Positions 11,594 through 52,686 of a stretch of DNA of 64,000 nucleotides are shown here, piece by piece (within the stretch, counting starts at the first letter, position 1; every line of letters begins with the position of its first letter). The DNA is from Sphingomonas sp. EC-HK361. Its GTDB lineage: Bacteria; Pseudomonadota; Alphaproteobacteria; Sphingomonadales; Sphingomonadaceae. The notes under the pieces are model-generated. The model searched no databases, had not been told where the DNA came from, and worked only from the letters and a program-made list of their open reading frames with translations. The stretch covers positions 1,116,724 through 1,180,723 of the forward strand of contig NZ_LR701493.1 of the NCBI RefSeq assembly GCF_902498785.1. Direction: 5' to 3'. The position numbers were made by a program, and so were the translations under genes.

Positions 11594-12276
11594 CGCGAGC
11601 GGCGCTCCGTGCGCGCACCGCTCAGCAGATCGCCCAGCGTCGAATCGCTGAGCAGGCTGCGGTCGAGCATCGCCATCGCCTCGGCCTTGCGCAGTTCGAC
11701 GCGGCGCTTGGACGCCGCTCCGCTTCCGGGCATCGCAGCCGCCGCCGGCTTCGTGATCGCCGCGATCCGCGTCAGCGCGGGTGTCGTGGCGGGCCGGTCT
11801 TGCGGCGCGTGCTCTTCCTTTGCCTTCGCGACCTGAAGGACTGCCGGAGCTGGTGAACGCGTGGTGGAGGCGGTTTCGATGACGGCCGGGGTGATCGCCG
11901 CCAGTGCGTAGCCGGACAGCGAGGGAACGATCAGCTGCGCGGTCTGGACCTGACCGGCGGAGCCTGCGGTTGCCGGCGTGCCGTCGAAGCTGATCGCGGC
12001 GAGCTGCGCCTCGTCACGCACGAACTGGCCGGCGGTCGGCGCGACGAGCGCCAGCGTATCGCCGTTCCACCGCTCGAGCTGCGCGAGGTTCGCGCGCGTA
12101 TCGAACTCCGTTTCCAGCGCGCGAATGTCGCGCTGGGCGCCGGCGATCTGGCGGTTCATGCTTTCCAGATGCTTGCGCTCCGAGGCGACCTGCAACGACA
12201 CGAGGTAGAAGGCCAGCGCGACCATCGTCACGCCGCCCATCCAGCCCAGACCCTTCAACCGATAGGCCGCCGTCAT
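11590..12276 (-). CDS. ftsL: FtsL-like divisome protein with a long C-terminal tail
   Basis: Position between rsmH and ftsI, a short cytoplasmic N-terminus, one membrane segment at about residues 11-31 and a following coiled-coil stretch ([13 protein letters not shown]...) all fit FtsL, which bridges FtsB/FtsQ to FtsWI. At 228 residues it is about twice the usual length. The extra half is rich in Ala, Pro and Thr and looks disordered. ATG overlaps the rsmH stop, and the stop overlaps ftsI. FtsL is poorly conserved, so the name rests partly on context. Confidence 0.75.
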
Positions 12277-13238: not shown

Positions 13239-13738
13239 AGCACCACCTTCTTTTCGGCGAGGTGATAGCGGCAGGCCGAGACCATCACGGCGGGGATGCC
13301 CGGCGTTTCGAACAGGATCGCCGGGTTCCAGATCTCGATCGTGTCGACCGCGCCCCAGAAGAAGGCGTAGCCGGCGATCTCGGCATGAAAGCGCGGGAAG
13401 CCGGGCATGATGAAGCGCCCGCTCGCATCGAACGGCGTCGCCTCCGCGCCCAGGCCGCCCTTGCGCTTGATGTTGTAGTCGAACTCGCCGTCGTCGGCGG
13501 GGTGCGCCTTTTCGCGCGCATCGAGATCGTCCGCCAACCGGTCGAGATAACCCGGATCGAACGCGACCAGGCAGCGCTCCTTCTGGTGCGCACCAATGAT
13601 GATGGTGCCGCCGCCCTTGCCTTCGCTGACCGGGGAATTGGCGATGAGGGTGGAACGAAGCGGCGCAGGGATGGCGACGCGGCCCTTGTCGTCGACAAGG
13701 CCGATGCCACTCCCGAGATACCGTCCTCTGTTCGACAC
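13235..13738 (-). CDS. mraZ: Transcriptional regulator MraZ
   Basis: This is the first gene of the dcw operon, encoding a ring-forming DNA-binding protein of the SpoVT/AbrB fold that in studied bacteria represses its own operon. It has 167 residues with two repeats; [13 protein letters not shown] marks the first. The start is GTG at 13736-13738, preceded by GAGG. Candidate MraZ operator repeats lie about 120 bases upstream. It is slightly longer than the E. coli protein (152). Confidence 0.93.
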
Positions 13739-13859
13739 GCCAACCTCGCACTGCGGCGCGCACGACTCAACACTCCCCGAAAGCGACTTGCGTCACCTCG
13801 GACTGCCCGGATTCGGGAAATGGCGAGTCTGCCCCTCTACGTCCGCTGATTAGGTATCA

Positions 13860-13903
13860 GGGGCGCATCGGGGATGCAAAGGGATTTTTGGGGAAATTAG
13901 GGG
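13860..13903. promoter_or_regulatory. Candidate MraZ operator: five G-boxes at 10-base spacing
   Basis: GGGG (GGG in the third) occurs at 13860, 13870, 13881, 13890 and 13900 on the plus strand, one per helical turn. Known MraZ operators are G-containing direct repeats with a 10-base period upstream of mraZ. Here the G-runs are on the strand opposite to mraZ. On the minus strand a GATACCTAAT stretch just downstream could be a -10 region. Confidence 0.6.
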
Positions 13904-13995
13904 ATAGGCCCTTAGATCGGGGGTCCTGATCCGGCGAACCGCCACAGCCGGACGCCCGCGCCGGCGCCGAAACCGGCGCGCGCAACGTTTGGCAC

Positions 13996-14009
13996 GGGGA
14001 ATTTCGGGG
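13996..14009. promoter_or_regulatory. Second pair of 10-base-spaced G-boxes
   Basis: ACGGGGAATTTCGGGGAAAT places two more GGGG boxes exactly ten bases apart, just downstream of the 14036-14425 gene and about 90 bases beyond the main array. They resemble the 13890/13900 boxes (TTGGGGAAATTAGGGGA). Nothing else is seen in the 13739-14035 gap. Confidence 0.35.
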
Positions 14010-14035
14010 AAATCATGGTGTGAGTCGCGGCGCGA

Positions 14036-14425
14036 TCAGCGGTGCACGGTCGGGCGGACGGGCGGCGGCGTGATCGGGGCGGCCGCATTGGCCTCTACCG
14101 CCGCCGCATCAACCGCGGGGGCCACGCCCAGCTCGGCAAGCGGCTCGTTCGTGCCCGTCGTCGGCGCGGTATCATTCTCGGCGACGAGGTTCGCGACGAC
14201 ATCGGATCGCGAAGCCCCCACCGCGGTGACCGGGCGTTCGGTATTCACGGTCGAGAAGATCGCGCTGGCGAGTCCGATGAGCAGCATCACCGCCGCAAGG
14301 CCGACCATGCCGACCTTGACGCGCTGCGTCGCCTGTTCACGCGACCGTTCCTTCGGGGGTGCGACTGTCTTCATCCCGTCGGGCGTCTGTAGCGCTTCGT
14401 CGCGATGTTGTCGAATTTCGCTCAA
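14036..14425 (-). CDS. Single-pass membrane protein of unknown function
   Basis: I read this from TTG at 14423-14425, which overlaps the cysteine synthase stop as TTGA, giving 129 residues. An ATG at 14375-14377 would give a shorter form. After a charged cytoplasmic stretch there is one hydrophobic segment at about residues 38-58 (VGMVGLAAVMLLIGLASAIF), then an Ala/Pro/Thr-rich tail ending PPVRPTVHR, probably periplasmic. No domain is recognised. It looks co-transcribed with the cysteine synthase gene upstream. Confidence 0.6.
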   Translation of the reverse strand: MSEIRQHRDEALQTPDGMKTVAPPKERSREQATQRVKVGMVGLAAVMLLIGLASAIFSTVNTERPVTAVGASRSDVVANLVAENDTAPTTGTNEPLAELGVAPAVDAAAVEANAAAPITPPPVRPTVHR

Positions 14426-15402
14426 TCCGTCGCCGGTCCAAGCCCCTTCGTCGCACGCCACTGTGGGTTGTGAAGCGTTGAAAGATAACGGAATCCCGTG
14501 TCGCACAGGATCGTCGCGACACGGCTGCCCCCGCCGATCTGCCGCCCCAGCGCGATGGCACCCGCGACGTTGATCCCGGACGACAGACCCAGGCACAGCC
14601 CCTCCTCGCGAAGCAGCCGCTCGACCCAGTACCAGCCTTCGTCGTCGGAAATCCGGAACTGGGTATCGATCGGCGCACCGTCCAGATTGGCGGTGATCCG
14701 CCCCTGCCCGATCCCTTCCGCGACCGACGACCCTTCCGATTTCAGCTCGCCATGCGCGTAATACTCATAAAGCGCCGCGCCGTGCGGATCAGTGAGCGCG
14801 ATGGTCACGCGCTCGTCATGCGCCTTCAGCCCGAGCCCCACCCCCGCCAGCGTTCCCCCGGTGCCGACCGCGCAGGTGAAGCCATCGATCCGCCCTTCCA
14901 TCTGCTGCCAGATCTCCTCGGCCGTGCCGACGATATGCGCACGGCGGTTCGCGATATTGTCGAACTGGTTCGCCCAGACCGCCCCCGGCGTCTCCTCCGC
15001 GATCCGGCGCGAGGTGTGGACGAAGTGGCAGGGGTTCGAATAGGCCGCCGCCGGCACGAGGACGAGCTCCGCGCCGAGTGCGCGCAGCGTATCCATCTTC
15101 TCGCGGCTCTGCGTCTCGGGCATCACGATGACGGTGCGATAGCCCTTGGCGTTGGCGACGAGCGCAAGGCCAATGCCGGTATTGCCCGCCGTCCCCTCGA
15201 CGATCGTCCCGCCGGGCTGCAACGCGCCCCGCGCCTCGGCATCCTCGACGATGAACAGCGCCGCGCGGTCCTTCACCGACGCGCCCGGATTGGCATATTC
15301 GCACTTGCCGAAAATCTCGCAGCAGGCCGCAGCACTCGGCCCGTTCAGCCGGACGAGCGGCGTGTTGCCAATGAGCGATAGCGTGTCGGGGGTGATCTGC
15401 AT
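14422..15402 (-). CDS. cysK: Cysteine synthase family PLP enzyme
   Basis: This enzyme is expected to make L-cysteine from O-acetylserine and sulfide in the cytoplasm. GNTPLVRL opens the protein, NPGASVKDRAA holds the PLP lysine, and GTAGNTGIGLA binds the phosphate; GTGGTLAGVG and a C-terminal GLSSGIN follow. I chose the ATG at 15400-15402 (326 residues). An upstream start at 15438 would add 12 poorly conserved residues. The long QFRISDDEGWYWVERL segment resembles cysteine synthase A. A related beta-substituting activity cannot be excluded. Confidence 0.88.
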   Translation of the reverse strand: MQITPDTLSLIGNTPLVRLNGPSAAACCEIFGKCEYANPGASVKDRAALFIVEDAEARGALQPGGTIVEGTAGNTGIGLALVANAKGYRTVIVMPETQSREKMDTLRALGAELVLVPAAAYSNPCHFVHTSRRIAEETPGAVWANQFDNIANRRAHIVGTAEEIWQQMEGRIDGFTCAVGTGGTLAGVGLGLKAHDERVTIALTDPHGAALYEYYAHGELKSEGSSVAEGIGQGRITANLDGAPIDTQFRISDDEGWYWVERLLREEGLCLGLSSGINVAGAIALGRQIGGGSRVATILCDTGFRYLSTLHNPQWRATKGLGPATD

Positions 15403-15544
15403 GGCCCAAAGATAGGGATACCGCGGCGCTGGCGGCAAGCGACCATCGCTTGGCCGCGCGCAAGTTTCACCACACGCCGCTGGAACACCGGCCTGCGGAT
15501 CGCGCTTGACGGAACCTTGTGCATGCGCGAAGCGTCAGGGCGCT

Positions 15545-15931
15545 ATGAAGAGCCCCCTGTTCCTCGCCCCCGCCGCCCTGCTGTTCGCACTTGCGGCATG
15601 CAACTCACAACCCAAAAGCCCCGAGGTCGTGGACAGCAATCCCGATCCGATGGCGACCCAGCTCGCCAACGCAGCCCCTGTCGAGCTGCCGCCCGCGATC
15701 AAGGCCGACAAGACGATGCGTTGCAAGGACAACAGCCTCGTCTACGTCACCTTCTTCGACGGCGACAAGCAGGTCTTCGTGAAGACGAAGAAGGACGGCA
15801 CGCCGACGACGCTGAAGGCGCCAGCCGCCGGCGAAGCCTATGTCGCCGATGGCGGCTGGAAGCTGACCGGCAACACCAGCAACATCACGCTCGAACAGCC
15901 GGGCAAGGACTCGCTCACCTGCAAGGCGTGA
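15545..15931 (+). CDS. Small lipoprotein, MliC-like
   Basis: The protein has 128 residues and begins with a lipoprotein signal (MKSPLFLAPAALLFALAAC), with the acylated Cys at about 19. The mature part has a Cys pair, MRCKDN near residue 60 and LTCKA at the very end, enclosing a WKLTGNTSNITLEQPGKD strand pattern. That layout resembles the MliC/PliC inhibitors of c-type lysozyme, but the match is by eye only. A strong terminator follows at 15956-15990. The frame is open further upstream (15506), but the signal peptide sets the start. Confidence 0.7.
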   Translation: MKSPLFLAPAALLFALAACNSQPKSPEVVDSNPDPMATQLANAAPVELPPAIKADKTMRCKDNSLVYVTFFDGDKQVFVKTKKDGTPTTLKAPAAGEAYVADGGWKLTGNTSNITLEQPGKDSLTCKA

Positions 15932-15955
15932 TCGCAGCCTGACGACATTCCAACG

Positions 15956-15990
15956 ACGGCCGGCGAGACGCTCGCCGGCCGTTTTTCTTT
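15956..15990 (+). terminator. Rho-independent terminator after the lipoprotein gene
   Basis: A perfect 12-base stem (ACGGCCGGCGAG / CTCGCCGGCCGT) with a three-base loop is followed by TTTTCTTT. Confidence 0.9.
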
Positions 15991-16037
15991 GCCCGCGGCT
16001 TGCCACCCCGCGCCGCACAGGCCAGATTCCGCGCGTC

Positions 16038-16751
16038 ATGGCGACCATCGCGATCTACAGTCTGAAGGGCGGCGTCGGGAAGACGACGCTTGCGGTCAAC
16101 CTCGCCTGGTGCGCCGCATCGCTGTCGGCGCGCCGCACCTTGCTCTGGGACCTCGATGCGCAAGGGGCGGCAAGCTGGATGCTCCACGCCGGCCCCGCCC
16201 GCCAGCCGGCAAGCGCGCTGTTCCAGAAAGACGTCGATCCGGCCAAGCTCGTCCAGCCCACCGCCGTCGCGCGGCTCGATCTCATCGCGGCTGACGCGTC
16301 GCTGCGTGATCTCGACCGGCAGTTTCACGAACTCGATCGCAAGAAGCGGCTGCGCAAGCTCGTCGAATCGGCCGCGCGCGATCATGATCGCGTCATTCTC
16401 GATTGCCCCCCCGGACTCGGCGACACCGCCGATCAGGCGATCCGCAGCGCCGACCTGATCGTCGTCCCCGTCATCCCGTCGCCGCTGTCCGCGCGCGCCT
16501 ATGCCGCGGTCACCGATCATGTCGGCGCGCGGCGCCCGATCCTGCCGGTCTTCGTCATGGTCGATCGCAGGCGTGCATTGCACCGCGCCGCGCTCACCGC
16601 GCATCCGGCCTGGCCGGTCATCCCGATGGCGAGCGCGGTCGAGCAGATGGCGGATCGCCGGGCGCCGATCGGCACTTACGCGCGGGCCAGCCCCGCCGCG
16701 ACCGCCTTTGCCGATCTGTGGCGCCATATCGAGCAGCGGCTCGCCGGGTGA
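16038..16751 (+). CDS. ParA/MinD-type ATPase
   Basis: At 237 residues, this is a deviant Walker A ATPase: YSLKGGVGKTTLAVN at about residues 8-22, WDLDAQGAAS (A' motif) and ILDCPPGLGD (Walker B). Relatives position DNA or protein cargo by cycling on the nucleoid or membrane. No ParB partner is adjacent, so the cargo is unknown and it is not the usual chromosomal parAB pair. Its TGA overlaps the GTG start of aat, implying coupled translation. Confidence 0.85.
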   Translation: MATIAIYSLKGGVGKTTLAVNLAWCAASLSARRTLLWDLDAQGAASWMLHAGPARQPASALFQKDVDPAKLVQPTAVARLDLIAADASLRDLDRQFHELDRKKRLRKLVESAARDHDRVILDCPPGLGDTADQAIRSADLIVVPVIPSPLSARAYAAVTDHVGARRPILPVFVMVDRRRALHRAALTAHPAWPVIPMASAVEQMADRRAPIGTYARASPAATAFADLWRHIEQRLAG

Positions 16752-17506
16752 GAGCCCCCGTCGCGCCCGAGACGCTCGATCCCGCCCTGGTGCTCGGCGC
16801 CTATGCGGTGGGGGTGTTCCCGATGGCGGACAGCCGCGATGCGGGCGGCGTCTATTGGGTCGAGCCGCGCCGCCGCGCCGTCCTGCCGCTCGGCGGCTTC
16901 CACCTCTCACGCAGCCTTGCGAAGCGGATCGCCTCGGATCGCTTCCGGGTGACCGCCGACACCGCCTTTGCCGACGTGATCGCGCTGTGCGCCGAATCCG
17001 CCGAGGACCGGCCGGAGACGTGGATCAACACGACGATCGAGCAGGTCTTCCTCGATCTCCATGCGCGCGGCTTTGCGCATTCGGTGGAATGCTGGGACGG
17101 CGACCGGCTCGTCGGCGGGCTTTACGGCCTGGCGCTCGGGCGGGCCTTTTTCGGGGAAAGCATGGTCAGCCGCGCGACCGATGCGTCCAAGGTCGCGCTC
17201 GCCTGGCTCGTCGCGCGATTGAAGGTCGGCGGCTTCTCGCTGCTCGATTGCCAGTTCATGACCGAACACCTCGCGACGCTCGGCGCCGTCGAGGTTTCGC
17301 GCGAAGACTACAAGGCGTTGCTCGGTTCCGCCGTATCGGGGATCGACGGCGTCGCGGTCGCGGCCGGCGCGGTCGCATCCGCATCGTCGGGCGCCGCCGC
17401 ATTCGGCGCGCTCGACCGGCTCGGCGCCGGCGACACGCCGACCTGCTCGGTATCGGGGCCGGTCTCGGGGAATTTCATCGTGCAGCTCTTGACCCAGACG
17501 TCATAG
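16748..17506 (+). CDS. aat: Leucyl/phenylalanyl-tRNA--protein transferase
   Basis: Aat places Leu or Phe on the N-terminus of proteins with basic N-terminal residues, marking them for ClpS/ClpAP. It starts at GTG 16748 (GTGA overlap with the ParA gene). Conserved stretches are WINTTIEQ, SVECWDGDRLVGGLYG and GRAFFGESMVSR. Typical family members end near residue 195 of this 252-residue frame. The remaining C-terminal part is Ala/Ser/Gly-rich and lies antisense to the end of the DUF2155 gene for 199 bases. It may be a non-conserved tail. Confidence 0.93.
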   Translation: MRAPVAPETLDPALVLGAYAVGVFPMADSRDAGGVYWVEPRRRAVLPLGGFHLSRSLAKRIASDRFRVTADTAFADVIALCAESAEDRPETWINTTIEQVFLDLHARGFAHSVECWDGDRLVGGLYGLALGRAFFGESMVSRATDASKVALAWLVARLKVGGFSLLDCQFMTEHLATLGAVEVSREDYKALLGSAVSGIDGVAVAAGAVASASSGAAAFGALDRLGAGDTPTCSVSGPVSGNFIVQLLTQTS

Positions 17507-17979
17507 ACCGCGTTCTGCACGACGTTGAGCGACGGGCGTTCCTTGTAGAGCCAGCCCGAGAAGACCCGCCGCCAGTGCTGGTCGATCCCGTGCACGTCGA
17601 GCTGGACGAACGCGCCGGTCAGTTGCTGCTGCTCCCACGGCGCGGTGCGCTCGCAGGCGCGCAGCCGTATGATCGTATCGCCCATCCGCACCGCCTGCCC
17701 GACCTTCATCGGCACGTTGCGCGAGACGCCGTTGCGCTTGTTGAGCCAGCCGATCACCGCGGTGCGCTCGGCCATCGGCGTCGTCCCGGCATCGACGACC
17801 GGGTTGTCGCTATCGACCGACACGACATCGCCAGCGGGCGCTGCGGGCTGCGCGTCGGGGACAGCCTGGCTGGATGCGGCCGTGCGCGGCGCGGGCGAGT
17901 CGGTGCGGGTGGCGATCCAGGTGCCGACCCCGGCGGCCGCGACCACCGCGGCGACGCCGATCGCCAGGGCGCGGTTCAT
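17308..17979 (-). CDS. DUF2155 domain protein
   Basis: The protein has 223 residues. An uncleaved or cleaved N-terminal hydrophobic segment (about 5-22) points to the periplasm or membrane. A DUF2155-like core follows at about residues 75-170, with LNKRNGVSRN, RLRACERTAPWE, FSGWLYKERPSLN and YDVWVKSC. Family function is unknown. The last 50 residues are Ala/Pro/Ser-rich. Start ATG 17979 overlaps the NDUFA12 stop by four bases, and the 3' end overlaps aat on the other strand. Confidence 0.85.
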   Translation of the reverse strand: MNRALAIGVAAVVAAAGVGTWIATRTDSPAPRTAASSQAVPDAQPAAPAGDVVSVDSDNPVVDAGTTPMAERTAVIGWLNKRNGVSRNVPMKVGQAVRMGDTIIRLRACERTAPWEQQQLTGAFVQLDVHGIDQHWRRVFSGWLYKERPSLNVVQNAVYDVWVKSCTMKFPETGPDTEQVGVSPAPSRSSAPNAAAPDDADATAPAATATPSIPDTAEPSNAL

Positions 17980-18368
17980 GCGTCGGGCGTCCACGCCTCG
18001 TAATCGCCTGTCGCGGCGGCGCGCCTGCCGCCCTTTTCGAGCGCACCGGCCGGCCGATAGGCGAGCGCGGTGCCGGTCATGTTGGGGACCGCAGGCTTCT
18101 GCCAAGTGCGGCGCGGCGGCATCGACCGGTCGGGCACCTCATCGACCTGATGGTGCATCCAGCTGAACCATTCGGGCGCGATCCGGCTCGCGTCGTTGGA
18201 GCCGGCATAGATCACCCAGCGGCGCGGACGCCCCGCGGTGTCGCTGCCGCCTTCGTAATACAGGTTGCCGAGATCGTCCGAGCCGACCTGACGCTTGCCG
18301 CGCAGGCCCATCCAGGTGCCGAAGGTGGCGCCGGTCCACCAGGTGAACGGATTGAGGTTGAGTGCCAT
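17976..18368 (-). CDS. NADH:ubiquinone oxidoreductase NDUFA12-type subunit
   Basis: The 130-residue protein begins MALNLNPFTWWTGATFGTWM and contains GNLYYEGG, RRWVIYAGSNDASRIAPEWF and WMHHQVDEVP, the pattern of the complex I accessory subunit NDUFA12/B17.2 found in alphaproteobacteria and mitochondria. It probably binds the peripheral arm of complex I. The frame is open upstream to 18503, but the family's N-terminus and the spacing fix the ATG at 18366-18368. It is coupled to the DUF2155 gene. Confidence 0.93.
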   Translation of the reverse strand: MALNLNPFTWWTGATFGTWMGLRGKRQVGSDDLGNLYYEGGSDTAGRPRRWVIYAGSNDASRIAPEWFSWMHHQVDEVPDRSMPPRRTWQKPAVPNMTGTALAYRPAGALEKGGRRAAATGDYEAWTPDA

Positions 18369-18441
18369 TGTGGCCCAGCGCTTAGCCGCAAGCCGCGGCG
18401 GCTTCAACCGCTCGTCACGCCGCGCACCCTCGCCGCGCCGC

Positions 18442-18921
18442 CTACTTCCCCCAGGCCACCTTGTCGCCTTCCGCGATGCCGAGTTCGGCGGCGCGACCGC
18501 CATTGATCTCGAGCACCGCCGCCACCGGCTCGCCCGACGGGATCGGCGTTTCCGAAAACGGCACGGTATTCTCGGCGATGCGCGCGATCGTGCGGTCGGC
18601 GCGGATGAAGAGGATGTCGAGCGGACTCGGCGTGTTCTTCATCCAGAAGCTCGCCTCGCGCAGCCCACCGCCAGCGGGCGGATAGGGGTGGAACAGCATC
18701 CCGCCATCCTTCGGGATGTCGGTGCGATACATCAGCCCCCTGGCCTGCGCCGCCTCCGTCTTCGCGACCTCGACGTGGAACACATGCGCGCCGTTGCTGC
18801 TCGTGATCGTCAGCGCGATGGTGCCCGCCGGCGCGTCGGCCGCCGTCGCGTCGCCCCCGCGCGCGCAGGCCGCCGGGATCGCAAGCACCGCCAGCGCCAG
18901 CGTCAGCCACGCCGTCCTCAT
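18442..18921 (-). CDS. DUF192 family exported protein
   Basis: At 159 residues, it begins with a hydrophobic signal (MRTAWLTLALAVLAIPAAC). The Cys could be a weak lipobox or the signal may be cleaved nearby. The body has the DUF192 pattern ARGLMYRTDIPKDGGMLF, FWMKNTPSPLDILFI and VLEINGGRAAELGI. The fold is known from structures but the role is not. The cold-shock gene ends one base upstream of its start, so the two probably share a transcript. Confidence 0.88.
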   Translation of the reverse strand: MRTAWLTLALAVLAIPAACARGGDATAADAPAGTIALTITSSNGAHVFHVEVAKTEAAQARGLMYRTDIPKDGGMLFHPYPPAGGGLREASFWMKNTPSPLDILFIRADRTIARIAENTVPFSETPIPSGEPVAAVLEINGGRAAELGIAEGDKVAWGK

Positions 18922-18922
18922 G

Positions 18923-19501
18923 TCAGAGCACCTCCTCGACCTGCACCGCCAGCGGCCCCTTGTTGCCGTCGACGATCCGCGCGCGCAGCGGCTGTTCGGG
19001 CTCGACCTCCATCACGCCGCCGCGCCGCAGCGTTTCCATATGCACGAAGACGTCGCCCGAATCATCGGGGCGGACGAGGAAGCCATAACCTTTCAGCCGG
19101 TTGAACCACTTCACCGCGACCGGCTCCCACGGGCCGGCCTGGTCGATCAGCGCGGATGGATCGTTGCGCTGCGCACGCTCGCGCTCCGGCGGCGCTGCGA
19201 CCGCGGTCGTCAGATCGAGGTCGAGGACGCTGCGCGCCTGGTAGCCCCGGTCCCGCCGCACCGCATCGACGACCATGCGCGCACCCTCGGGCAGGCTGCG
19301 CCGGCCAAGTGGCTGGAGGATCGAGAAATGCACCAGCACGTCGCCGATATCGCCGGTATCGGGAACAAGGAAGCCGAAGCCGCGGGTCACGTCGAACCAC
19401 TTCAGCGTGCCCTCCACGCGAAAGCCATCCTCGACCGGTGCCTGCCCGGTCGCGGTCGCCTCCTCACGTAATTCCGCGTCACGCTGCGGATCGGCACGCA
19501 T
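18923..19501 (-). CDS. Tandem cold-shock-domain protein
   Basis: Two OB-fold cold-shock domains lie in 192 residues. The first is at about 28-95 (GTLKWFDVTRGFGFLVP, VLVHFS) and the second at about 125-190 (AVKWFNRLKGYGFLVRP, DVFVHMETL). Both keep the RNP-1 type GFGFL/GYGFL aromatic surface, so both should bind single-stranded RNA or DNA. Double-CSD proteins of about this size are typical of alphaproteobacteria. DUF192 follows directly. Confidence 0.9.
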   Translation of the reverse strand: MRADPQRDAELREEATATGQAPVEDGFRVEGTLKWFDVTRGFGFLVPDTGDIGDVLVHFSILQPLGRRSLPEGARMVVDAVRRDRGYQARSVLDLDLTTAVAAPPERERAQRNDPSALIDQAGPWEPVAVKWFNRLKGYGFLVRPDDSGDVFVHMETLRRGGVMEVEPEQPLRARIVDGNKGPLAVQVEEVL

Positions 19502-19572
19502 ACCTAATTCCCCCGGAAGGCGGGAACGCTAGCAAAACTGACGCGCCGCACAAGGGTTATGGGGCACAATAG

Positions 19573-20124
19573 TCAGGCGGCGAATTCGGCCGCGATGTCT
19601 TCGGTCGACGCACCGGGCGGCGCATCGACGATCGCGCGGGCGATCGCGAAGCCGTGGCCGGCACGCAGCATCGCGGCGAGCTGCTTTTCCCGCCGCGGGC
19701 GATCGGATGCTGCAAGCGCGAACGGCCCGATCCGCTTGCGCCGGGCAAAGGCGAGCGCGGTCTCGGCGGCGCGCTCGTCGACGTCCGGGCGGATCGCCGC
19801 GGTATCCTGCGCCTCGATTCCTGCCTGCCGCCACGCGTCCTGCACCCGCCGCGCGCCCAGTCCGCGCCGCCCGAGACTGCGCGCGCGCGCTTCGGCAAAG
19901 GCGCGGTCGTCGATATAGCCCAGTTCCGCCAGCCGCGCGGCGAGCGCATCGGGATCGGCGGCCTCGCCCTCCCATCCCCGCTCGCGGATCTTGCGGCGCA
20001 GATAGTCGGCCAGCTTCGCGCGGCTCGTCGCGAACCGCTCGACATAGCGCAGCGCCAGCCGCTCCAGCGCCGCCGCGTCGAGCGGCGGTGGGGCCGCGCG
20101 GCCGGGCTTGCGGTTTCGTGTCAT
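19573..20124 (-). CDS. recX: RecX family regulatory protein
   Basis: At 183 residues, the helical repeats include LALRYVERFATSRAKLADYLRRKI and LGYIDDRAFAEARARSLGRRGLGARRV, the RecX pattern. RecX binds RecA filaments and restrains recombination. recA is not in this window. No clear LexA box is seen upstream. The gene is divergent from the acyl-AMP ligase across 134 bases. Confidence 0.88.
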   Translation of the reverse strand: MTRNRKPGRAAPPPLDAAALERLALRYVERFATSRAKLADYLRRKIRERGWEGEAADPDALAARLAELGYIDDRAFAEARARSLGRRGLGARRVQDAWRQAGIEAQDTAAIRPDVDERAAETALAFARRKRIGPFALAASDRPRREKQLAAMLRAGHGFAIARAIVDAPPGASTEDIAAEFAA

Positions 20125-20258
20125 CGCGCCATCCCGATCGTTACGCCATCATTGTGCCACACTGGGATCGGATTTTGAACGCCAGGATCGGGCAGAGCTG
20201 TATCTCTGACCTCAGGCGGGGCCAACCCGCGACGATGAAGAACGGGAAGCGAAGAACG

Positions 20259-22013
20259 ATGACGAGCGACACCCAGATGGCCGCGACGCCCAGCGTCGAT
20301 GCGCTGCCGCGTCGGTTCGCCGATTTCGACACGCTCGGCGAGGCGCTGGATTATGCCGCACGCGGGGAGCGCGGGCTGAATTTCCACGACGCGCGCGGCA
20401 ACCTCGCGCGACCCTATCCCTTTGCCGAACTGCGCGGCGACGCGCTGGCCGCCGCCTACCGGCTGATCGCGTCCGGGGTAAAGCCCGAGGACCGCGTCGC
20501 GCTGGTCGCCGAGACGAGCGCCGAGTTCGCCGCGCTGTTCTTCGGCGTCGTCTATGCCGGCGCCTGGCCCGTGCCGCTGCCGCTGCCGACCTCGTTCGGC
20601 GGGCGCGACAGCTATATCGAGCAGCTGCGCGTCCAGCTTTCCAGCTGCGACCCGACGATGCTCATCTATCCGCCCGAACTCGGCGAGATGGCCGGCGCCG
20701 CCGCGCAGGCGGTCGGCGCGCAAGGCATCGACTGGGCCGATCTGCTCTCGCGCCCTGCGCTTGAGACGCCGCTGCCGCAGGCGACCGCCGACGATATCGC
20801 CTATCTGCAATATTCCAGCGGATCGACGCGCTTCCCCCACGGCGTCGCGATCACCCACCGCGCGCTCCTCAACAACCTCGCGGCGCACAGCCACGGGATG
20901 GAGATCGACGGCACCGATCGCTGCGTTTCCTGGCTTCCGTGGTATCACGACATGGGGCTGGTCGGCTGCTTCCTGTCGCCGGTCGCCAACCAGGTTTCGA
21001 CCGATTATCTCAAGACCGAGGATTTCGCGCGGCGCCCGCTCGCGTGGCTCGACATGATTTCGCGAAATCCGGGCACGACGCTCAGCTATTCGCCGACCTT
21101 CGGCTACGACATCTGCGCGCGCCGCATCTCGTCGGTGACCAAGGCGTCCGACCGGTTCGACCTCTCGCGCTGGCGGGTGGCCGGCAACGGCGCCGACATG
21201 ATTCGCCCCGATGTGATGCAGGCGTTCGTCGACGCCTTTGCCGAGGCCGGGTTCAAGGCGTCCGCGTTCCTGCCGAGCTACGGCCTGGCCGAGGCGACGC
21301 TTGCGGTGACGATCATGCCCCCAGGCGAAGGCATCCGCGTCGAGCTGGTCGAGGAAACGCAGCTTTCTGGCGTCGAAGCGGGGCAGGATCGCCCGCAGCG
21401 CTTCCGCGCGATCGTCAATTGCGGCAAGCCCGTCCGTGATATGAAGGTCGAAATCCGCGAGGAGGACGGCACGCCGCTCCCCGAACGCGCGATCGGCAAG
21501 GTCTGGTGCGCGGGGCCGTCGGTGATGGTCGGCTATTTCCGCGACGACGCGGCGACCGCGGCCTGCATGGCCCCCGATCCCGCCGGCGCCGGCACCTGGC
21601 TCGATACCGGCGACATGGGCTATATGTCGGACGGCTATCTCTACATCGTCGGCCGCGCCAAGGACATGATCATCGTCAACGGCCGCAACCACTGGCCGCA
21701 GGACATCGAATGGGCGGTCGAGCAGCTGCCCGGCTTCAAGGCGGGCGATATCGCAGCCTTTGCGATCACCACGCCCGGCGGCGAGGAAACCCCCGCCGTC
21801 CTCGTCCAGTGCCGCAGTTCCGACGAGGCCGAGCGCGTTCGCCTGCGCGACGAGATTCGCGAGCGCGTCCGCTCCGTCACCGGCATGAACTGCGTGATCG
21901 AGCTGATCCCGCCGCGCACCCTGCCGCGCACCTCTTCGGGCAAGCTCAGCCGGGCAAAGGCACGCAACCTCTATCTCGCGGGCGAGATCAAGCCGTACGA
22001 TCTAGCCGCGTAA
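20259..22013 (+). CDS. Fatty acyl-AMP ligase (adenylate-forming enzyme)
   Basis: At about 584 residues, this is an ANL-superfamily enzyme with LQYSSGSTRFPHGV (phosphate loop), SYGLAEATLAV, WLDTGDMGY, RAKDMIIVNGRNHWPQDIE and the catalytic lysine in PRTSSGKLSRAKAR. The extended N-terminal part and the WLPWYHDMGLVG block fit the FAAL subgroup, which activates fatty acids as AMP esters for transfer to carrier proteins rather than CoA. No carrier protein or polyketide gene is adjacent. An in-frame ATG lies eight codons upstream; no clear ribosome site separates the two. Confidence 0.88.
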   Translation: MTSDTQMAATPSVDALPRRFADFDTLGEALDYAARGERGLNFHDARGNLARPYPFAELRGDALAAAYRLIASGVKPEDRVALVAETSAEFAALFFGVVYAGAWPVPLPLPTSFGGRDSYIEQLRVQLSSCDPTMLIYPPELGEMAGAAAQAVGAQGIDWADLLSRPALETPLPQATADDIAYLQYSSGSTRFPHGVAITHRALLNNLAAHSHGMEIDGTDRCVSWLPWYHDMGLVGCFLSPVANQVSTDYLKTEDFARRPLAWLDMISRNPGTTLSYSPTFGYDICARRISSVTKASDRFDLSRWRVAGNGADMIRPDVMQAFVDAFAEAGFKASAFLPSYGLAEATLAVTIMPPGEGIRVELVEETQLSGVEAGQDRPQRFRAIVNCGKPVRDMKVEIREEDGTPLPERAIGKVWCAGPSVMVGYFRDDAATAACMAPDPAGAGTWLDTGDMGYMSDGYLYIVGRAKDMIIVNGRNHWPQDIEWAVEQLPGFKAGDIAAFAITTPGGEETPAVLVQCRSSDEAERVRLRDEIRERVRSVTGMNCVIELIPPRTLPRTSSGKLSRAKARNLYLAGEIKPYDLAA

Positions 22014-43122: not shown

Positions 43123-43737
43123 TCAGCGCGAGTAGAACTCGACCACCAGGTTCGGTTCCATCTTCACCGGATACGGCACTTCGTCCAGGGTGGGCACGCG
43201 CACGAAGGTGATCTTCGCGTTGCCGTCCGGCGCGACATAATCGGGGACGTCACGCTCGGCGAGGCTCTGCGCTTCCATGACGAGCGCCATGTCCTTGGCC
43301 TTCGTGCCCAGCGAAATCTCGTCGCCGACAAAGCAGCGGCGCGACGCGATGTTGCACTTCACGCCGTTGACGCGGATGTGGCCGTGGCTGACGAGCTGGC
43401 GCGCCGCGAAGATCGTCGGCGCGAACTTGGCGCGGTAGACGATCATGTCGAGCCGCTGCTCGAGCAGGCCGATCAGGTTCTGGCCGGTGTCGCCCTTCAT
43501 GCGCGCCGCCTCGTGATAGCAGGCGCGGAACTGCTTCTCGGTCACGTCGCCATAATAGCCCTTGAGCTTCTGCTTGGCGCGCAGCTGGATGCCGAAGTCG
43601 CTGACCTTGCCCTTGCGACGCTGGCCGTGCTGGCCGGGGCCATATTCGCGCTTGTTGACCGGGCTCTTCGGACGACCCCAGATGTTCTCGCCCATCCGGC
43701 GGTCGAGCTTGTACTTGGCGCTCTGGCGCTTCGACAT
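43123..43737 (-). CDS. rpsD: 30S ribosomal protein S4
   Basis: At 204 residues, it begins [20 protein letters not shown], with the S4 RNA-binding domain in [31 protein letters not shown]. It is an early 16S rRNA binder. It stands as a single gene rather than in the rpoA operon. Its leader (43738 upward) is about 180 bases to the next gene and holds one copy of a 28-base repeat. Confidence 0.98.
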
Positions 43738-43920: not shown

Positions 43921-44199
43921 CTACTCGAAGACCGGCGTTCCCACATGGTCGGTTTGCACCCGGGAAATGTTGCCGAGCATGCGCATCCGCATGTCCACGT
44001 CTTTGCCGGCCGCCGACTTGGCGTCGCTCCACTCCACAGCCGTCCGGCAGGTGCGCACCGGCATGCGCGATCCGGTGAATGTCTGCGAGCGGCAGATCTT
44101 CTTGCCCGAAGCGTCCTTGGCATCCTTGGCGATGGCCGGCTCAGTCAGAGCCAAGGACAGCATGGGAAGCACAGGAATGGTCACCAATATGCGGAGCAT
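43921..44199 (-). CDS. Small secreted Cys-pair protein, copy 1
   Basis: At 92 residues from ATG 44199 (AGGGGGACGGAG just upstream), with a signal peptide (MLRILVTIPVLPMLSLAL). The mature core KKICRSQTFTGSRMPVRTC has two cysteines 16 residues apart, followed by RTAVEW. The same motif occurs in the neighbouring gene at 44467. No known domain; probably a small disulfide-bonded periplasmic protein. Another ATG six codons upstream is possible. Its C-terminal part differs from the paralogue. Confidence 0.7.
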   Translation of the reverse strand: MLRILVTIPVLPMLSLALTEPAIAKDAKDASGKKICRSQTFTGSRMPVRTCRTAVEWSDAKSAAGKDVDMRMRMLGNISRVQTDHVGTPVFE

Positions 44200-44373
44200 C
44201 TCCGTCCCCCTCGCCATTGCAACGCCATCAAAATCATCGATTGACGAGCAGCTTAGCACACCCGAGGCGCCATACAAGCGTTCGCCGGCGCGATGGCCCC
44301 CCGCCGGGCCTCCGTGCTGCCGGATCGCTGCGTATCGCCACAAACCTGGCGGCGCCGTGCCCGCCGCGAAGTG

Positions 44374-44466: not shown

Positions 44467-44727
44467 TTATTGCCGGCTAACTCCGGCGGTCGTCGCGGGC
44501 CGATTCCGGAAAGCCTCTACGTTCGCCGCATTGGTTTCTTCCTGCTGCTTCCATTCGCTGGCGGTGTGGCATGTGCGGTGCGGCATTATGGACCCCGTGA
44601 CGGACTCGCTCCGGCAGATCTTCTTTTCCTTCGCCGGCGAAGGCGTCGGCTCTGCCTTCTGCGCCACAGCACCGGACGATATGGCCAATGCTGCCACGCC
44701 CATTACCACCAATAAAAGCTGCCGCAT
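44467..44727 (-). CDS. Small secreted Cys-pair protein, copy 2
   Basis: At 86 residues, with a signal peptide (MRQLLLVVMGVAALAISSGAVA), a Pro/Lys linker, and the core KKICRSESVTGSIMPHRTC followed by HTASEW. This is clearly paralogous to the 43921-44199 product. AGAGGATAGGGTC precedes the ATG. It diverges from the chorismate mutase-like gene. Function is unknown. Confidence 0.72.
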   Translation of the reverse strand: MRQLLLVVMGVAALAISSGAVAQKAEPTPSPAKEKKICRSESVTGSIMPHRTCHTASEWKQQEETNAANVEAFRNRPATTAGVSRQ

Positions 44728-44844: not shown

Positions 44845-45174
44845 ATGCCCGACAGGATCCTCCCAGGCCCCGATTGCACGACCATGATCGAGGTGCGTGC
44901 CGGCGTCGATCAGGTCGACCGCGAGCTCGTGGCGCTGCTCGTCCGGCGATTCGCCTATATGGACGCCGCGGCGCGCATCAAGCCGACGCGCGGCGCGGTA
45001 CGCGACGAGGCGCGCAAGGCGCAGGTGATCGCCAACGCTCGGGCGGCCGCGGAAGCCGCGGGGCTGCCCGGAGACGCGATCGCGGCGCTCTGGGATCAGC
45101 TCGTGGAGGCCTCGATCGCCTACGAGTTCGACGCCTTCGATACCGATACGGACCGAAGCGTAACCGCTTCTTAG
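44845..45174 (+). CDS. Chorismate mutase-like (AroQ fold) protein
   Basis: At 109 residues, a three-helix AroQ pattern is visible: VRAGVDQVDRELVALLVRRF, then AARIKPTRGAVRDEARKAQV and a C-terminal WDQLVEASIAYE. Basic residues expected at the active site (Arg in VRAG, Arg in LVRR, Lys in RIKP) are present. It could be a chorismate mutase or an isochorismate-pyruvate lyase (PchB-like). TTGACA at 44760-44765 may be its -35 box. It lies 52 bases upstream of the aminotransferase fusion. Confidence 0.8.
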   Translation: MPDRILPGPDCTTMIEVRAGVDQVDRELVALLVRRFAYMDAAARIKPTRGAVRDEARKAQVIANARAAAEAAGLPGDAIAALWDQLVEASIAYEFDAFDTDTDRSVTAS

Positions 45175-45226
45175 CAGCCTCCATGGCAAGCGCCCGGCTT
45201 CGACAAAGGAGCCCGGGGGAGTTCGC

Positions 45227-47695
45227 TTGCAGCAAAGACTGCCGCTGATCGCACCGCAGCCGCCGCGGCTCAGCCGCCTGACGGCCGCGCTCGAGCGGGT
45301 GGAGGCGTCCGGCACCTACAGCAACACCGGTCCCGAAGTCCGCGCGTTCGAGGCGGAGGCGACCGCGCAGCTGTTCGGCGGCTGCGGCGATTCGCTTGCG
45401 GTCGCCAACGCGACGCTTGGCCTGATCCTGGCGATCAGCGATCAGGCGCGCCCTCGCGCGGGGCTTGGCCTCGCGCTCATGCCGGCCCTCACCTTTGCCG
45501 CGACCGCGCAGGCCGCGCATTGGGCGGGCCTGACCCCGCTCATCTGCGATATCGATCCGGACGACTGGTCCGCCGCGGCGGCCGAGGAAGAGTGCCTGCT
45601 CTCGCTCCATGCGGATCGGATCGCGGTGATCGTGCCCTATGCCACCTTCGGCCGCGCGATCGATCTCGATCGCTATGCGTGGCTCGCCGACCGTCACGGT
45701 GTCGGCGTCGTCGTCGATGCGGCGGCCTCGCTCGGCACGACCACCGCGGATGGACTGAACTTCGGCGCCGGCGCGCGCTTCCCCGTCGTCTTTTCGATGC
45801 ACGCGACCAAGACCTTCGCGACAGCGGAAGGAGGCCTCGTCCACTGCAGCGATGCCGGCGTCATCGCGCGGCTGCGATCGATGGCGAATTTCGGATTCGA
45901 TGGCGCGCGCAGCGCCGTTCTGCCGGGCCTCAACGCGAAACTGCCCGAAGTCCTCGCCGTCATGGCGCGCGCGAAGCTTGCGGAATTTCCGGGCGTATGT
46001 GCCGCGCGTGAAGCGGTTGCGGCCGCCTATCGTGCCGCGATCAGCGATCGATACGGCCTGCAGTCGCGCACACCGGGCACGCAGGCCATGCAGTTTTTTC
46101 CCGTGCTGCTCCCGCCCGGCTCTGACCGTGAGGTCATTGCCGAACGCATGGCGGCACGCGGCATCGGCACCGGGCGCTATTTCTCCCCGCATCTGGGCGA
46201 GCAGCCCTGGATCCGCGCCAACGCCCAAATCGAGCCGACGCCGGTCGCGGACGACATCGCCGCGCGGCTGCTCTCGTTGCCGATCACCGATAGGATGACC
46301 CCAGCCGATGCAGAGCGCGTCGCGGCTGCGCTGGACGACGCCTGCCGTCCGCGTGCGAAGGCGGTTGTATCGATTGCCGCCCCCCCGGTCGCCGATGTCC
46401 TGATCGTCGGCGGCGGTCCGGCCGGCTCGGCCGTTCTTACGGCGGCAACCAAGCGCGGCCTGTTGCCCGACTTCGCGCGCAATCTGGTGGTGGTCGAACG
46501 CGACCACGGCATCGGTGGCGGGCGGCTCGGACACTACGCCATCACCTCTGATTCGACCGCGCAGACGTTTCTCAGCGCGGTAGAGGGCAACATCCACCCC
46601 GAGATCGCTGCGCTGGCGGACCATCCCACAGGCCGCGCCGTCGCCGGCTACCGCGATGCGCTCGGCGTGCCGCTGGTCGAAGCGGGCCCCTTCCTGAGGG
46701 CAACCGGTGAGCGGTTAGCGGAAATCGTCCGCGGCGCCGGTGGCACGATCCTGACCGGGCACGAGGCGCTCGCGACCCGGCGCGGGCATGACGGCTTATG
46801 GCGCACCACCCTCCGCGACCGGGAAAGCGGCCGAACGCAGGAGCGCGCGTCGCGTAGCGTCGTCATCGCGACCGGCGGGCATCAGCCGCTCGATCGGCTG
46901 GCGCAGCAGCGTGTGGCAGGCGAGCCGCTCATCGCGCTGGCCGGCGATCGGCTCGTCCAGTCGGATAGCATCCTCGCCATCGGCGGGCCGGCGCGTGTTG
47001 AGGATCTGCTCGCCGGGAAGCGTGCGCCGCGGATCGCGGTGATCGGCGGGTCGACCAGCGCGCTGACGACGGTCGTCCTCCTGCTCAAAAGTGCCCTGCC
47101 GCTCGGTCCGGGCGCGATATCGCTGCTCCACCGCCGGCCGCTTCGCCCCTTCTATCCCTCCGTCGAGGCCGCGCATGCCGAAGGGTTTCGCGATTTCGGC
47201 CCCGACGATGTCTGCCCGATATCGGGCTTCGTCTACCGCCTCGCGGGCTTTCGGCTGGAGGCGCGCGAACTCGTCCTGCGCCTCCTCGGCGTCGACGGCC
47301 GGGCAAGCGAGCCCCGCGTCGCTGCGCACCGCATCGATGACGACCACGCAAAGGCGCGCGCGCTGATCGACGATGCCGACCTGGTCATCGCGGCGCTCGG
47401 CTATCGCCCGCATGCGCTGCCGGTCGAGGGCACCGACGGCACGCCGGTCACGCTCGCCGCGCATTACGGGGCACCGATGGTGGATCGGCATTGCCGCGTT
47501 ACCGACGCTGCCGGCCAGCCGATCCCCGGCCTCTACGGCATCGGCCTGGCGGCTGGCTTCGTGCCCTGGGGATCGCTCGGCGGCGAGGCGAGCTTTCGCG
47601 GGCAGGCGAACGGCCTGTGGCTCTGGCAGAATGATGTGGGGCTGATGATCGTCGATCAGGTGATGGCCGATATCGCCACGCGCGCGGTCGCGTGA
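45227..47695 (+). CDS. DegT-type aminotransferase fused to an FAD/NAD(P) oxidoreductase
   Basis: An 822-residue fusion. Residues about 1-375 form a DegT/DnrJ/EryC1/StrS PLP enzyme; the lysine in MHATKTFATAEGG (K195) is present, so it should be an active aminotransferase. Residues about 388-822 form a flavoprotein with VLIVGGGPAGSA at 391-402, a second nucleotide loop IAVIGGSTSALTT, IATGGH and IAALGYRP, resembling N-hydroxylating or similar monooxygenases. The start is TTG 45227 with GGGGGAG seven bases upstream. The GTGA overlap with the glycosyltransferase gene implies one pathway. The substrate is unknown. Confidence 0.85.
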   Translation: MQQRLPLIAPQPPRLSRLTAALERVEASGTYSNTGPEVRAFEAEATAQLFGGCGDSLAVANATLGLILAISDQARPRAGLGLALMPALTFAATAQAAHWAGLTPLICDIDPDDWSAAAAEEECLLSLHADRIAVIVPYATFGRAIDLDRYAWLADRHGVGVVVDAAASLGTTTADGLNFGAGARFPVVFSMHATKTFATAEGGLVHCSDAGVIARLRSMANFGFDGARSAVLPGLNAKLPEVLAVMARAKLAEFPGVCAAREAVAAAYRAAISDRYGLQSRTPGTQAMQFFPVLLPPGSDREVIAERMAARGIGTGRYFSPHLGEQPWIRANAQIEPTPVADDIAARLLSLPITDRMTPADAERVAAALDDACRPRAKAVVSIAAPPVADVLIVGGGPAGSAVLTAATKRGLLPDFARNLVVVERDHGIGGGRLGHYAITSDSTAQTFLSAVEGNIHPEIAALADHPTGRAVAGYRDALGVPLVEAGPFLRATGERLAEIVRGAGGTILTGHEALATRRGHDGLWRTTLRDRESGRTQERASRSVVIATGGHQPLDRLAQQRVAGEPLIALAGDRLVQSDSILAIGGPARVEDLLAGKRAPRIAVIGGSTSALTTVVLLLKSALPLGPGAISLLHRRPLRPFYPSVEAAHAEGFRDFGPDDVCPISGFVYRLAGFRLEARELVLRLLGVDGRASEPRVAAHRIDDDHAKARALIDDADLVIAALGYRPHALPVEGTDGTPVTLAAHYGAPMVDRHCRVTDAAGQPIPGLYGIGLAAGFVPWGSLGGEASFRGQANGLWLWQNDVGLMIVDQVMADIATRAVA

Positions 47696-48744
47696 CGCCG
47701 CCCGCGCCCACCGTCAGCGTCGTCATGGCGGCCTATAATGGCGCCGGGCTCATCGGGGAGACGCTCGCGAGCCTTGCCGCGCAGACCTTCGGCGATTTCG
47801 AGCTCATCGTCGTCGATGACTGCTCGACCGACGACACGCGCGCGGTCATCGCAGGCTGGGACGATCCAAGGCTGCGGCTGATCGAGTCTGCGCACAACGG
47901 TGGCCCCGTCCGTGCGCGCAACCGCGCCTTTGCGCAGGCGCGCGGCCGCTATGTCGCCGGGCTCGACCAGGACGATCTGTGCACGCCCGATCGCTTCGCG
48001 CGGCAGGTCGCGTTTCTCGATGCAAATCCCGACGTCGTCCTCGTCGGTGCCAATGCGCACTATCTCGACGGGGCCCGGCAGAGCGCATCGGCCTATGCGC
48101 CGCTCACCACCCCGACGCTCGTCGAATGGCTGCTTCATGTCGAAAATCCGCTCGTCTGGTCATCGGTGATGCTGCGCACAGATGCCGCCCGCACGCTCGA
48201 TCCCTTCACCCGCCCGGACATCCTCTACGCCGAGGATTTCGACCTCTATCACCGCATGGCGCGGATGGGCCGGATCGCGCGGCTCGACGACGAGCTGATC
48301 CTCTATCGCCGCCACGCCGGCGGCGCCTCGCACCGCTACACCGCCACGATGGAGGACAGCGCCGCGCTGGTGCTGGCGGGCGCCTATGCGCCGTTCTTCG
48401 GCGAGGGTGCGGTCGAAGCCGCTAGCCTCGTGGTTCGTCACGTCATGGGCCGCACCGCCCCGCCCGACCGCGCGACGCTGGAGGCGATCGGCGATATCCT
48501 CGTTCGCCTGCAGGACCTGTTCCTGCAACGCCATCCGTGCGACGAACCGTGCCTGCGCCTGATCCGCTGGGAAACCGCGCGACGCTGGGCAGGCGTGGTG
48601 CGCAGCGGACTGCGCAGCGGCACGATCACGCTGTTCGATGTCGTCGCCGCGCGCCGCGATCATCTGGGACTCGGTCATGCCGGGATCGAGGAGCTCGCCT
48701 GGTCGCGCGCCATCGGCAAGACGCGGGGGCTGATCGGGCGGTAG
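47692..48744 (+). CDS. Family 2 glycosyltransferase
   Basis: At 350 residues, it has a GT-A fold beginning PTVSVVMAAYNGAGLIGETLASL, with IVVDDCSTDDT and the metal motif GLDQDD, then a later EDFDLYHRM. The C-terminal 120 residues are helical with no recognised domain and no clear membrane span. GTG 47692 overlaps the fusion gene stop. It probably adds a sugar to the product of that pathway. It converges with xerC, leaving four bases between the stops. Confidence 0.9.
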   Translation: MTPPAPTVSVVMAAYNGAGLIGETLASLAAQTFGDFELIVVDDCSTDDTRAVIAGWDDPRLRLIESAHNGGPVRARNRAFAQARGRYVAGLDQDDLCTPDRFARQVAFLDANPDVVLVGANAHYLDGARQSASAYAPLTTPTLVEWLLHVENPLVWSSVMLRTDAARTLDPFTRPDILYAEDFDLYHRMARMGRIARLDDELILYRRHAGGASHRYTATMEDSAALVLAGAYAPFFGEGAVEAASLVVRHVMGRTAPPDRATLEAIGDILVRLQDLFLQRHPCDEPCLRLIRWETARRWAGVVRSGLRSGTITLFDVVAARRDHLGLGHAGIEELAWSRAIGKTRGLIGR

Positions 48745-51887: not shown

Positions 51888-52535
51888 TTATGGATCGTCG
51901 ACGATGGCTGGCGGTGCCGGCCCGGGATCGTTAGGTTCTGGAAGGGGATCGTCACCTGGCCCTCCGGCATGCATCAATTGCGGCTTGTCCGACGACGCGT
52001 TTGTAAGCCGCAAAGCATCTCTCGAGAAGCGCGATGCCAGCCATTGATAGCTTGCATAAAGCCGGGGTCGATAGACGAAATCGTCTTTCGCTTCGTTTAA
52101 ACGCCACCGCTCCCGCTGAATATAGGAAGCGGCAGCATTCCAGTCGCGCACGACAGCGCTTCCCATCCATTCCTTGTAGATTTTCTCGTCGAGAATATTG
52201 TTTCGAATGCCGATCGCGACGAGCTCATAATGGTTGAGATAATCCTGCACATCGGCGCGCGCCTTACGCTCTTCATCGCTTTGCGGGTCATGCAGCGCTG
52301 CAAATCCGCCCGCTTTTCGCGTCGCCGAAAACGCCTCGTTGAGCGAACGGTAATGCTCGGTCGACTCAAATTTCTCGATGATATCAAGCGTCGCTTTCTG
52401 GCGTGCGACAGCGCGTGCGTTGCGGATTCCCAGCCATGCGACGAAGACCGATATCAGGACCAAAGCGGGTCCCAAGAGCGTCTTCCAAAGTGGACCGGAA
52501 TCAGAAACGCAGCGGAAGGACTCCGCTGCGCTCAT
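51888..52535 (-). CDS. DUF4760-like membrane protein
   Basis: At about 215 residues, one membrane segment near the N-terminus (LLGPALVLISVFVAWLGI) is followed by IRNARAVARQKATLDIIEKFEST, the DUF4760 pattern, and a helical cytoplasmic domain. The tail is Pro/Asp-rich. Base composition is visibly lower in G+C than its neighbours, and the 52566-52686 gap is also A+T-rich with a small inverted pair at 52604-52618, so it may be acquired. The start is uncertain (ATG 52535 or TTG 52565). Confidence 0.65.
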   Translation of the reverse strand: MSAAESFRCVSDSGPLWKTLLGPALVLISVFVAWLGIRNARAVARQKATLDIIEKFESTEHYRSLNEAFSATRKAGGFAALHDPQSDEERKARADVQDYLNHYELVAIGIRNNILDEKIYKEWMGSAVVRDWNAAASYIQRERWRLNEAKDDFVYRPRLYASYQWLASRFSRDALRLTNASSDKPQLMHAGGPGDDPLPEPNDPGPAPPAIVDDP

Positions 52536-52686
52536 AAAACCAAAATGAAAAATCTGGCAATTCAACGGATTTAGTCGCGTGCACCTTCGCGCATCATCAA
52601 TCCTTCCTTGATAAGGAACTGCTTGTGAATATCTGACTTAGCATCCAACAAGTCAATAGAGCCTTACGGTCGGTTTCCCTCGCTCC

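Follow-up and report, generated by a model that had tools for sequence, protein, structure and literature searches.

What sequence of reactions would a single polypeptide carry out in which a sugar aminotransferase of the DegT family is joined to a flavoprotein? The question is raised by a 64,000-nucleotide stretch of DNA from Sphingomonas sp. EC-HK361 (NCBI RefSeq assembly GCF_902498785.1, contig NZ_LR701493.1, positions 1,116,724 to 1,180,723 of the forward strand), referred to here as the window. It encodes an 822-residue protein composed of a DegT half and a half expected to bind flavin adenine dinucleotide (FAD), directly followed by a family 2 glycosyltransferase (GT2). These two genes are the conserved unit of the locus. 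Their products may constitute a glycan-tailoring cassette that makes an N-oxidized amino sugar for a surface glycan or lipid, a proposal to which we give an even chance. The principal features, in window positions, are as follows.

45227..47695, + strand: DegT-FAD fusion, a single open reading frame of 822 amino acids with a TTG start
45227..46345, + strand: DegT sugar-aminotransferase half, residues 1-373 (PF01041; solved relatives 3ju7 and 2po3)
45809..45811, + strand: codon of K195, the lysine expected to form the Schiff base with pyridoxal phosphate (PLP), invariant in 21 aligned fusions
46346..46390, + strand: interdomain linker, approximately residues 374-388, taken from the whole-fusion model, which is of low confidence at 377-383
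46391..47692, + strand: half expected to bind FAD and nicotinamide adenine dinucleotide (phosphate) (NAD(P)H), modelled like class B N-hydroxylating monooxygenases
46409..46426, + strand: GGGPAG, putative FAD-binding loop, residues 395-400 (G395, G397, P398, A399 and G400 invariant)
47045..47062, + strand: GGSTSA, second nucleotide loop and expected NADPH site, residues 607-612 (G607 and S609-A612 invariant)
47378..47404, + strand: DLVIAALGY, residues 718-726 (D718, G725 and Y726 invariant)
47692..48744, + strand: GT2 glycosyltransferase of 350 amino acids, translationally coupled through GTGA (PF00535, 4e-34, 118.4 bits against a gathering score of 23.3)

The fusion and its glycosyltransferase as a conserved unit

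The fusion is arranged as a DegT domain at residues 19-369, followed from approximately residue 390 by a Pyr_redox_2/FAD-type half, and its stop codon shares a GTGA overlap with the start of the GT2 gene. Pfam searches of the window proteins returned CM_2, DegT_DnrJ_EryC1, weak Pyr_redox_2 and FAD_binding_2, and Glycos_transf_2. An earlier account made from the letters alone (the sequence-only reading) had described a fusion with an intact PLP lysine and two nucleotide loops, preceded by a chorismate mutase-like (AroQ-like) frame and joined by GTGA to a GT2, and each of these elements is present as described. A scan of a genome collection with the FAD half found 131 relatives, nearly all of them named Sphingomonas; the loci of the best 80 were retained and read (L numbers denote loci and G numbers genomes). 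DegT and FAD form one fused open reading frame in 76 of these 80 loci; the other four are L041 and L073, both fragments at contig edges, L078 with a frameshift, and L067 with a standalone FAD gene. A frame error joining two genes is accordingly rejected. Homologous DegT halves (at least 50% identity) were found in 78/80 loci and homologous GT2 genes (at least 45% identity) likewise in 78/80, such that the fusion and GT2 travel together. The next gene on the same strand overlaps the fusion by 4 base pairs in 57 of the 80 loci and starts within 100 base pairs of it in 21 more, one of which (L050) has a gene other than GT2 in this position. The cassette occurs in many differing genomic neighborhoods, and no recurrent sugar-pathway gene was seen among its immediate neighbors, most of which were assessed by the opening part of their sequence and a few by Pfam. 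Exceptions are an acyltransferase gene after GT2 in three loci, described below, and a weak RmlB-like gene (28-29% identity) situated several kilobases away in L049, L058 and L062. A scan for promoters and terminators found nothing. The conserved unit is the DegT-FAD fusion (45227-47695) together with GT2 (47692-48744), two genes.

Several genes recur beyond the cassette itself. Directly after GT2 in L055 (10458-11534), L065 and L074 lies a gene of a single cluster, which in L055, the sole member scanned, encodes an Acyl_transf_3 membrane acyltransferase and is a possible N- or O-acylating partner. Just past GT2 in 41/80 neighborhoods is a gene clustering with a YkuD_2 L,D-transpeptidase (for example L001:10375-11920), and in 38/80 there is one clustering with a second YkuD protein; the opposite side of the cassette differs. 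These counts cover 79 loci and the window, with L067 left out and Pfam applied to L001. The organism names of L001 (Microvirga sp. SRT01) and L076 (Arthrobacter sp. TPD3018) may be wrong, because both loci carry Sphingomonas-type cassettes, with 69% and 59% identity, respectively, to the window fusion.

The two halves of the fusion

The DegT half matches PF01041 with 196.1 bits against a gathering score of 19.8 (E 1.3e-57), and its lysine, K195, which lies within SMHATKTF, is unchanged across all 21 aligned fusions, the window's among them. The best solved relatives are 3ju7 (3.4e-51), an uncharacterized aminotransferase of Bacillus cereus, and 2po3 (4.1e-44), which is DesI, the thymidine diphosphate (TDP)-4-keto-6-deoxyglucose 4-aminotransferase, in a structure that contains its TDP-sugar product. 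Both share the DegT fold and family with the window half at 30-35% identity, whereas their chains (377 and 424 residues) are too short to hold a flavin domain. DesI is also the top NCBIfam model (TIGR04427), at 165.7 bits and under the equivalog cut-off of 650; the DegT half, though it may work like DesI, is not classed as such.

The overall predicted fold of the FAD half is that of the class B N-hydroxylating monooxygenases. When its model was searched with Foldseek, the first 42 rows were all SidA, PvdA, DfoA and KtzI N-hydroxylases together with DiatB, which is not counted here as an N-hydroxylase, and SidA came first. Both dinucleotide loops typical of these enzymes are present as putative sites with invariant core residues, the second reading GGSHSA or GASHSA in distant relatives. 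N-Hydroxylating monooxygenases carry the motif D(x)3(L/F)ATGY, which DLVIAALGY of the window protein resembles, and ATGY itself occurs in some relatives. Unlike SidA, PvdA, DfoA and KtzI, to which it is only 12-20% identical with a template-modelling score of about 0.5, the window half is fused to an aminotransferase and gave no match to PF13434, the family of lysine and ornithine N-monooxygenases, at E 0.01; two of 14 relatives do match. No close solved relative was found in searches of solved structures, and the same searches started from two distant FAD relatives gave one match at E 0.66 and none, respectively. The FAD half would accordingly fall within the class B flavoprotein monooxygenase fold, as a branch that has no name.

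The linker between the halves differs among homologues in both length and sequence. The model of the whole fusion has a mean predicted local distance difference test score of 84.1 and a predicted template-modelling score of 0.53; because of the latter, the relative orientation of the domains is uncertain, and channelling is therefore not claimed.

Recurrent pairing of DegT and FAD proteins

The FAD half was found in 92/151 genomes of the genus, 87 of which carry it in an open frame of at least 826 amino acids, as a fusion would require. It was likewise found in 13/298 genomes of a family sample, 12/398 of a phylum sample (four shared with the family sample) and 7/121 of the Kushneria family. 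Beyond the genus, FAD and DegT are again found paired. Granulicella has a reversed fusion, with FAD at 11-440 and then DegT at 504-874 (42% and 46% identity), with a GT2 gene next in a cluster that includes Wzz, export and sugar-transferase genes. In L174, from the family sample, DegT, FAD and GT2 are encoded by three individual genes, ordered as in the window, and in L160 and L161 the DegT and FAD genes are separate and adjacent, their frames overlapping in L160. Four further loci hold the FAD gene and a DegT gene of another lineage, with GT2, a flippase and a Wzc-like protein next to them (L165, assigned by Pfam, and L162, L163 and L166, assigned by similarity). Several of the relatives stand in a polysaccharide context.

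A different arrangement is seen in Kushneria L067 and in L168 of the same family, where a lone FAD gene is followed by GT2, RmlB, RmlA, DegT and GT2; in L168 both Rml proteins score above the cut-off. The L067 FAD protein is 63% identical to the window half, and the DegT proteins of both loci belong to a different lineage. In a maximum-likelihood tree, whose deep branches are long and unsure, the FAD proteins of L067 and L168 nest inside the fused clade with support of 97/91 at both enclosing forks; apparently, therefore, the flavin half here parted from its own DegT and was paired anew with another.

Some more distant relatives lie next to other PLP enzymes. Those of Erwinia and Rahnella adjoin an annotated aminotransferase, which in Erwinia, where it was scanned, has a nucleotidyltransferase domain as well, and that of Shinella lies in a non-ribosomal peptide synthetase/polyketide synthase (NRPS/PKS) cluster beside another PLP enzyme. 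Nineteen FAD loci outside Sphingomonas were counted with about 8 kb read on each side, apart from the Sphingomonas loci, the genus and family samples, and L175. DegT is fused or at most four genes away in nine, another PLP enzyme is adjacent in three, and seven have neither (L164, L167 and, from the Kushneria family, L169-L173). The two halves are joined in either order, or lie next to each other in unrelated clusters, and are not always separate and unlinked as the sequence-only reading had allowed that they might be. The fusion is genuine and conserved, and it has been assembled repeatedly.

The Erwinia and Rahnella relatives (L083 and L085, approximately 9968-20900) are themselves part of plasmid clusters that hold the FAD relative, the aminotransferase, a CDP-alcohol phosphatidyltransferase, HAD proteins, an ATP-grasp protein and an MFS protein. 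This looks like an uncharacterized metabolite or lipid pathway.

Proposed chemistry and its alternatives

The chemistry that we assign to the fusion is a reasoned guess. The DegT half, with PLP, would convert a keto-sugar carried on a nucleotide to an amino sugar, the best candidate, at least in relatives, being deoxythymidine diphosphate (dTDP)-4-keto-6-deoxyglucose. The fused FAD/NADPH half would then oxidize the new amine to a hydroxylamine through a flavin hydroperoxide, possibly going on to the nitroso, oxime or nitro state, and a surface glycan or lipid would receive the N-oxidized sugar from the coupled GT2. Precedents exist for the individual steps. In calicheamicin biosynthesis, CalS13, a DegT enzyme, aminates a TDP-sugar at the 4 position and CalE10 N-hydroxylates the product; CalE10 is a separate cytochrome P450, whereas the FAD half is fused to its aminotransferase. 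The nitrososynthases KijD3, DnmZ and RubN8 carry out flavin-dependent N-oxidation of nucleotide amino sugars with an acyl-CoA-dehydrogenase fold, whereas the window half is modelled as a two-loop class B fold. A nucleotide-tethered amine is a reasonable substrate for the FAD half because FrbG of FR-900098 biosynthesis, described as similar to group B flavin monooxygenases, is reported in a review to be an FAD-dependent N-hydroxylase whose substrate is an aminopropylphosphonate unit within a cytidine monophosphate conjugate (PMC7347517). The substrate of FrbG is a phosphonate and not a sugar. A literature search, with most subscription literature outside its reach, recognized no description of a DegT-FAD fusion.

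The identity of the sugar was approached through the pathway genes of the host genomes. RmlB is present in 80/92 genomes with the FAD half as compared to 41/59 without it (odds ratio 2.9, p 0.012, uncorrected for kinship), a difference in favor of the proposal, and the genomes of 20 further loci, nine of them already among the 92, include two without RmlB. Were dTDP-4-keto-6-deoxyglucose the sole sugar source, every genome with the FAD half should have RmlB; 14/103 do not. RmlA, too, was unmatched in 13 of these 14, an absence that looks real because all three control genomes (3/3) gave an RmlA match. Both observations weigh against a single substrate common to all, and dTDP-4-keto-6-deoxyglucose is rejected as a universal Sphingomonas substrate. 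It is retained as the best candidate only where rmlAB exist; in L168 and Kushneria L067 both genes are close to the FAD gene. Guanosine diphosphate-4-keto-6-deoxymannose was rejected as a common precursor, Gmd being unassociated with the FAD half (39/92 against 25/59). A dehydratase of the uridine diphosphate-N-acetylglucosamine type (PF02719) gave no match at E 1e-20 in 12 of the RmlB-less genomes, and genomes G009 and G456 gave weak dehydratase-like matches only.

The missing RmlA matches, along with the lack of consistent sugar-nucleotide genes among the immediate Sphingomonas cassette neighbors examined, would also suit a fusion that acts on a non-nucleotide ketone, the N-oxidized free amine then being glycosylated by GT2 to yield a small secondary metabolite. 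The distant FAD relatives in the Shinella NRPS/PKS cluster or beside an annotated aminotransferase (with the nucleotidyltransferase domain in Erwinia) point the same way. Against such a metabolite, the known functions closest to the DegT half are those of nucleotide-sugar 4-aminotransferases, in genomes other than Sphingomonas several pairs, fused or adjacent, sit in polysaccharide clusters, and the cassette comes without further biosynthetic genes, all of which leaves it improbable. The sequence-only reading had proposed a product of this kind, aminated, then oxidized, perhaps N-hydroxylated, and glycosylated; its order of amination followed by oxidation gains support from the leading Foldseek rows, whereas the polysaccharide clusters make a glycan sugar more likely than a free small molecule. 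It is similarly unlikely that the flavin half lacks oxygenase activity and is instead a reductase or dehydrogenase, linked to NAD(P)H, with the sugar as its substrate or a role in cofactor recycling. Pyr_redox_2 is its best Pfam match, thioredoxin-reductase and ferredoxin-NADP-reductase chains rank highest in the profile search, and Bdr/YpdA is second in VIA-align. The whole-half Foldseek comparison, however, places SidA-type chains first and the first reductase chain (FNR2) only at row 43; the FAD half exceeds those reductase chains by approximately 100 residues, and no CxxC active site was seen in it by eye.

The upstream neighborhood bears on a further alternative, in which AroQ, the fusion and GT2 would together turn chorismate or isochorismate into an aminated, oxidized and glycosylated aromatic. 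Two features are concerned.

44845..45174, + strand: AroQ/PchB-like open reading frame of 109 amino acids, judged to lie outside the cassette (PF01817, 5.9e-19)
43123..43737, - strand: gene that AroQ accompanies, which we take to be rpsD, encoding ribosomal protein S4

In favor of such a pathway, the three genes directly follow one another on the same strand in the window, and the AroQ frame, which matches both CM_2 and PchB, resembles PchB, with 67.3 bits to the isochorismate lyase model (NF005475) against a cut-off of 126. Although the frame is thus like PchB and AroQ-type chorismate mutases, it is unlinked to the cassette. AroQ occurs in 18/80 cassette loci, precisely the 18 that also hold rpsD. 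In a second sample of 30 genomes whose cassette locus has no AroQ, 24 carry the gene elsewhere (at least 54% identity), with rpsD in reach (within about 1.5 kb on either side) in 18 of the 24; in G029, AroQ and the cassette are only about 10 kb apart. Among 20 genomes taken from the 59 without the FAD half, 14 have AroQ, with rpsD in reach in 10. AroQ is a neighbor of rpsD, with or without the cassette, and is rejected as a cassette member, which removes the three-gene unit of the sequence-only reading. The pathway is refuted as a conserved unit, and we attach to it the slightest of probabilities.

One locus (L178:6940-9680) has AroQ, an FAD gene and GT2 in succession, and no DegT half turned up within the 17 kb read; the aminotransferase half has apparently been lost naturally there. 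Between rpsD and AroQ in the window lie two small, probably secreted paralogues (43921-44343 and 44467-44727, both - strand) that have in common a KICRSxxxTGSxMPxRTCxTAxEW-like stretch with two cysteines and that neither Pfam nor NCBIfam matched at E values up to 0.1. Farther downstream, a DUF4760 protein of unknown function (51888-52565, - strand) is flanked by what are presumably priA-like and ATP-synthase genes.

We thus return to the glycan-tailoring cassette. We advance tentatively that one chain aminates and N-oxidizes a nucleotide sugar by way of a class B flavin N-hydroxylase, as opposed to one of the P450 or acyl-CoA-dehydrogenase type, that most Sphingomonas bear hydroxylamino-, nitroso- or nitro-sugars on their surface glycans, and that the pairing has been re-formed several times in other bacteria. 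N-Oxidized sugars are known to us from rare antibiotics only. If the proposal is true, an environmental genus that is abundant would commonly display them on its surface, the FAD half being carried by 92/151 of the genomes sampled. The FAD half would likewise add to the flavin N-oxygenases a new branch whose amine substrate is tethered, and the fusion would be a one-chain enzyme for chemistry that needs two enzymes elsewhere. For annotation, a rule of thumb follows that this unnamed FAD family frequently accompanies aminotransferases. Together, these observations suggest that the cassette represents an undescribed route to oxidized amino sugars on bacterial surface glycans.

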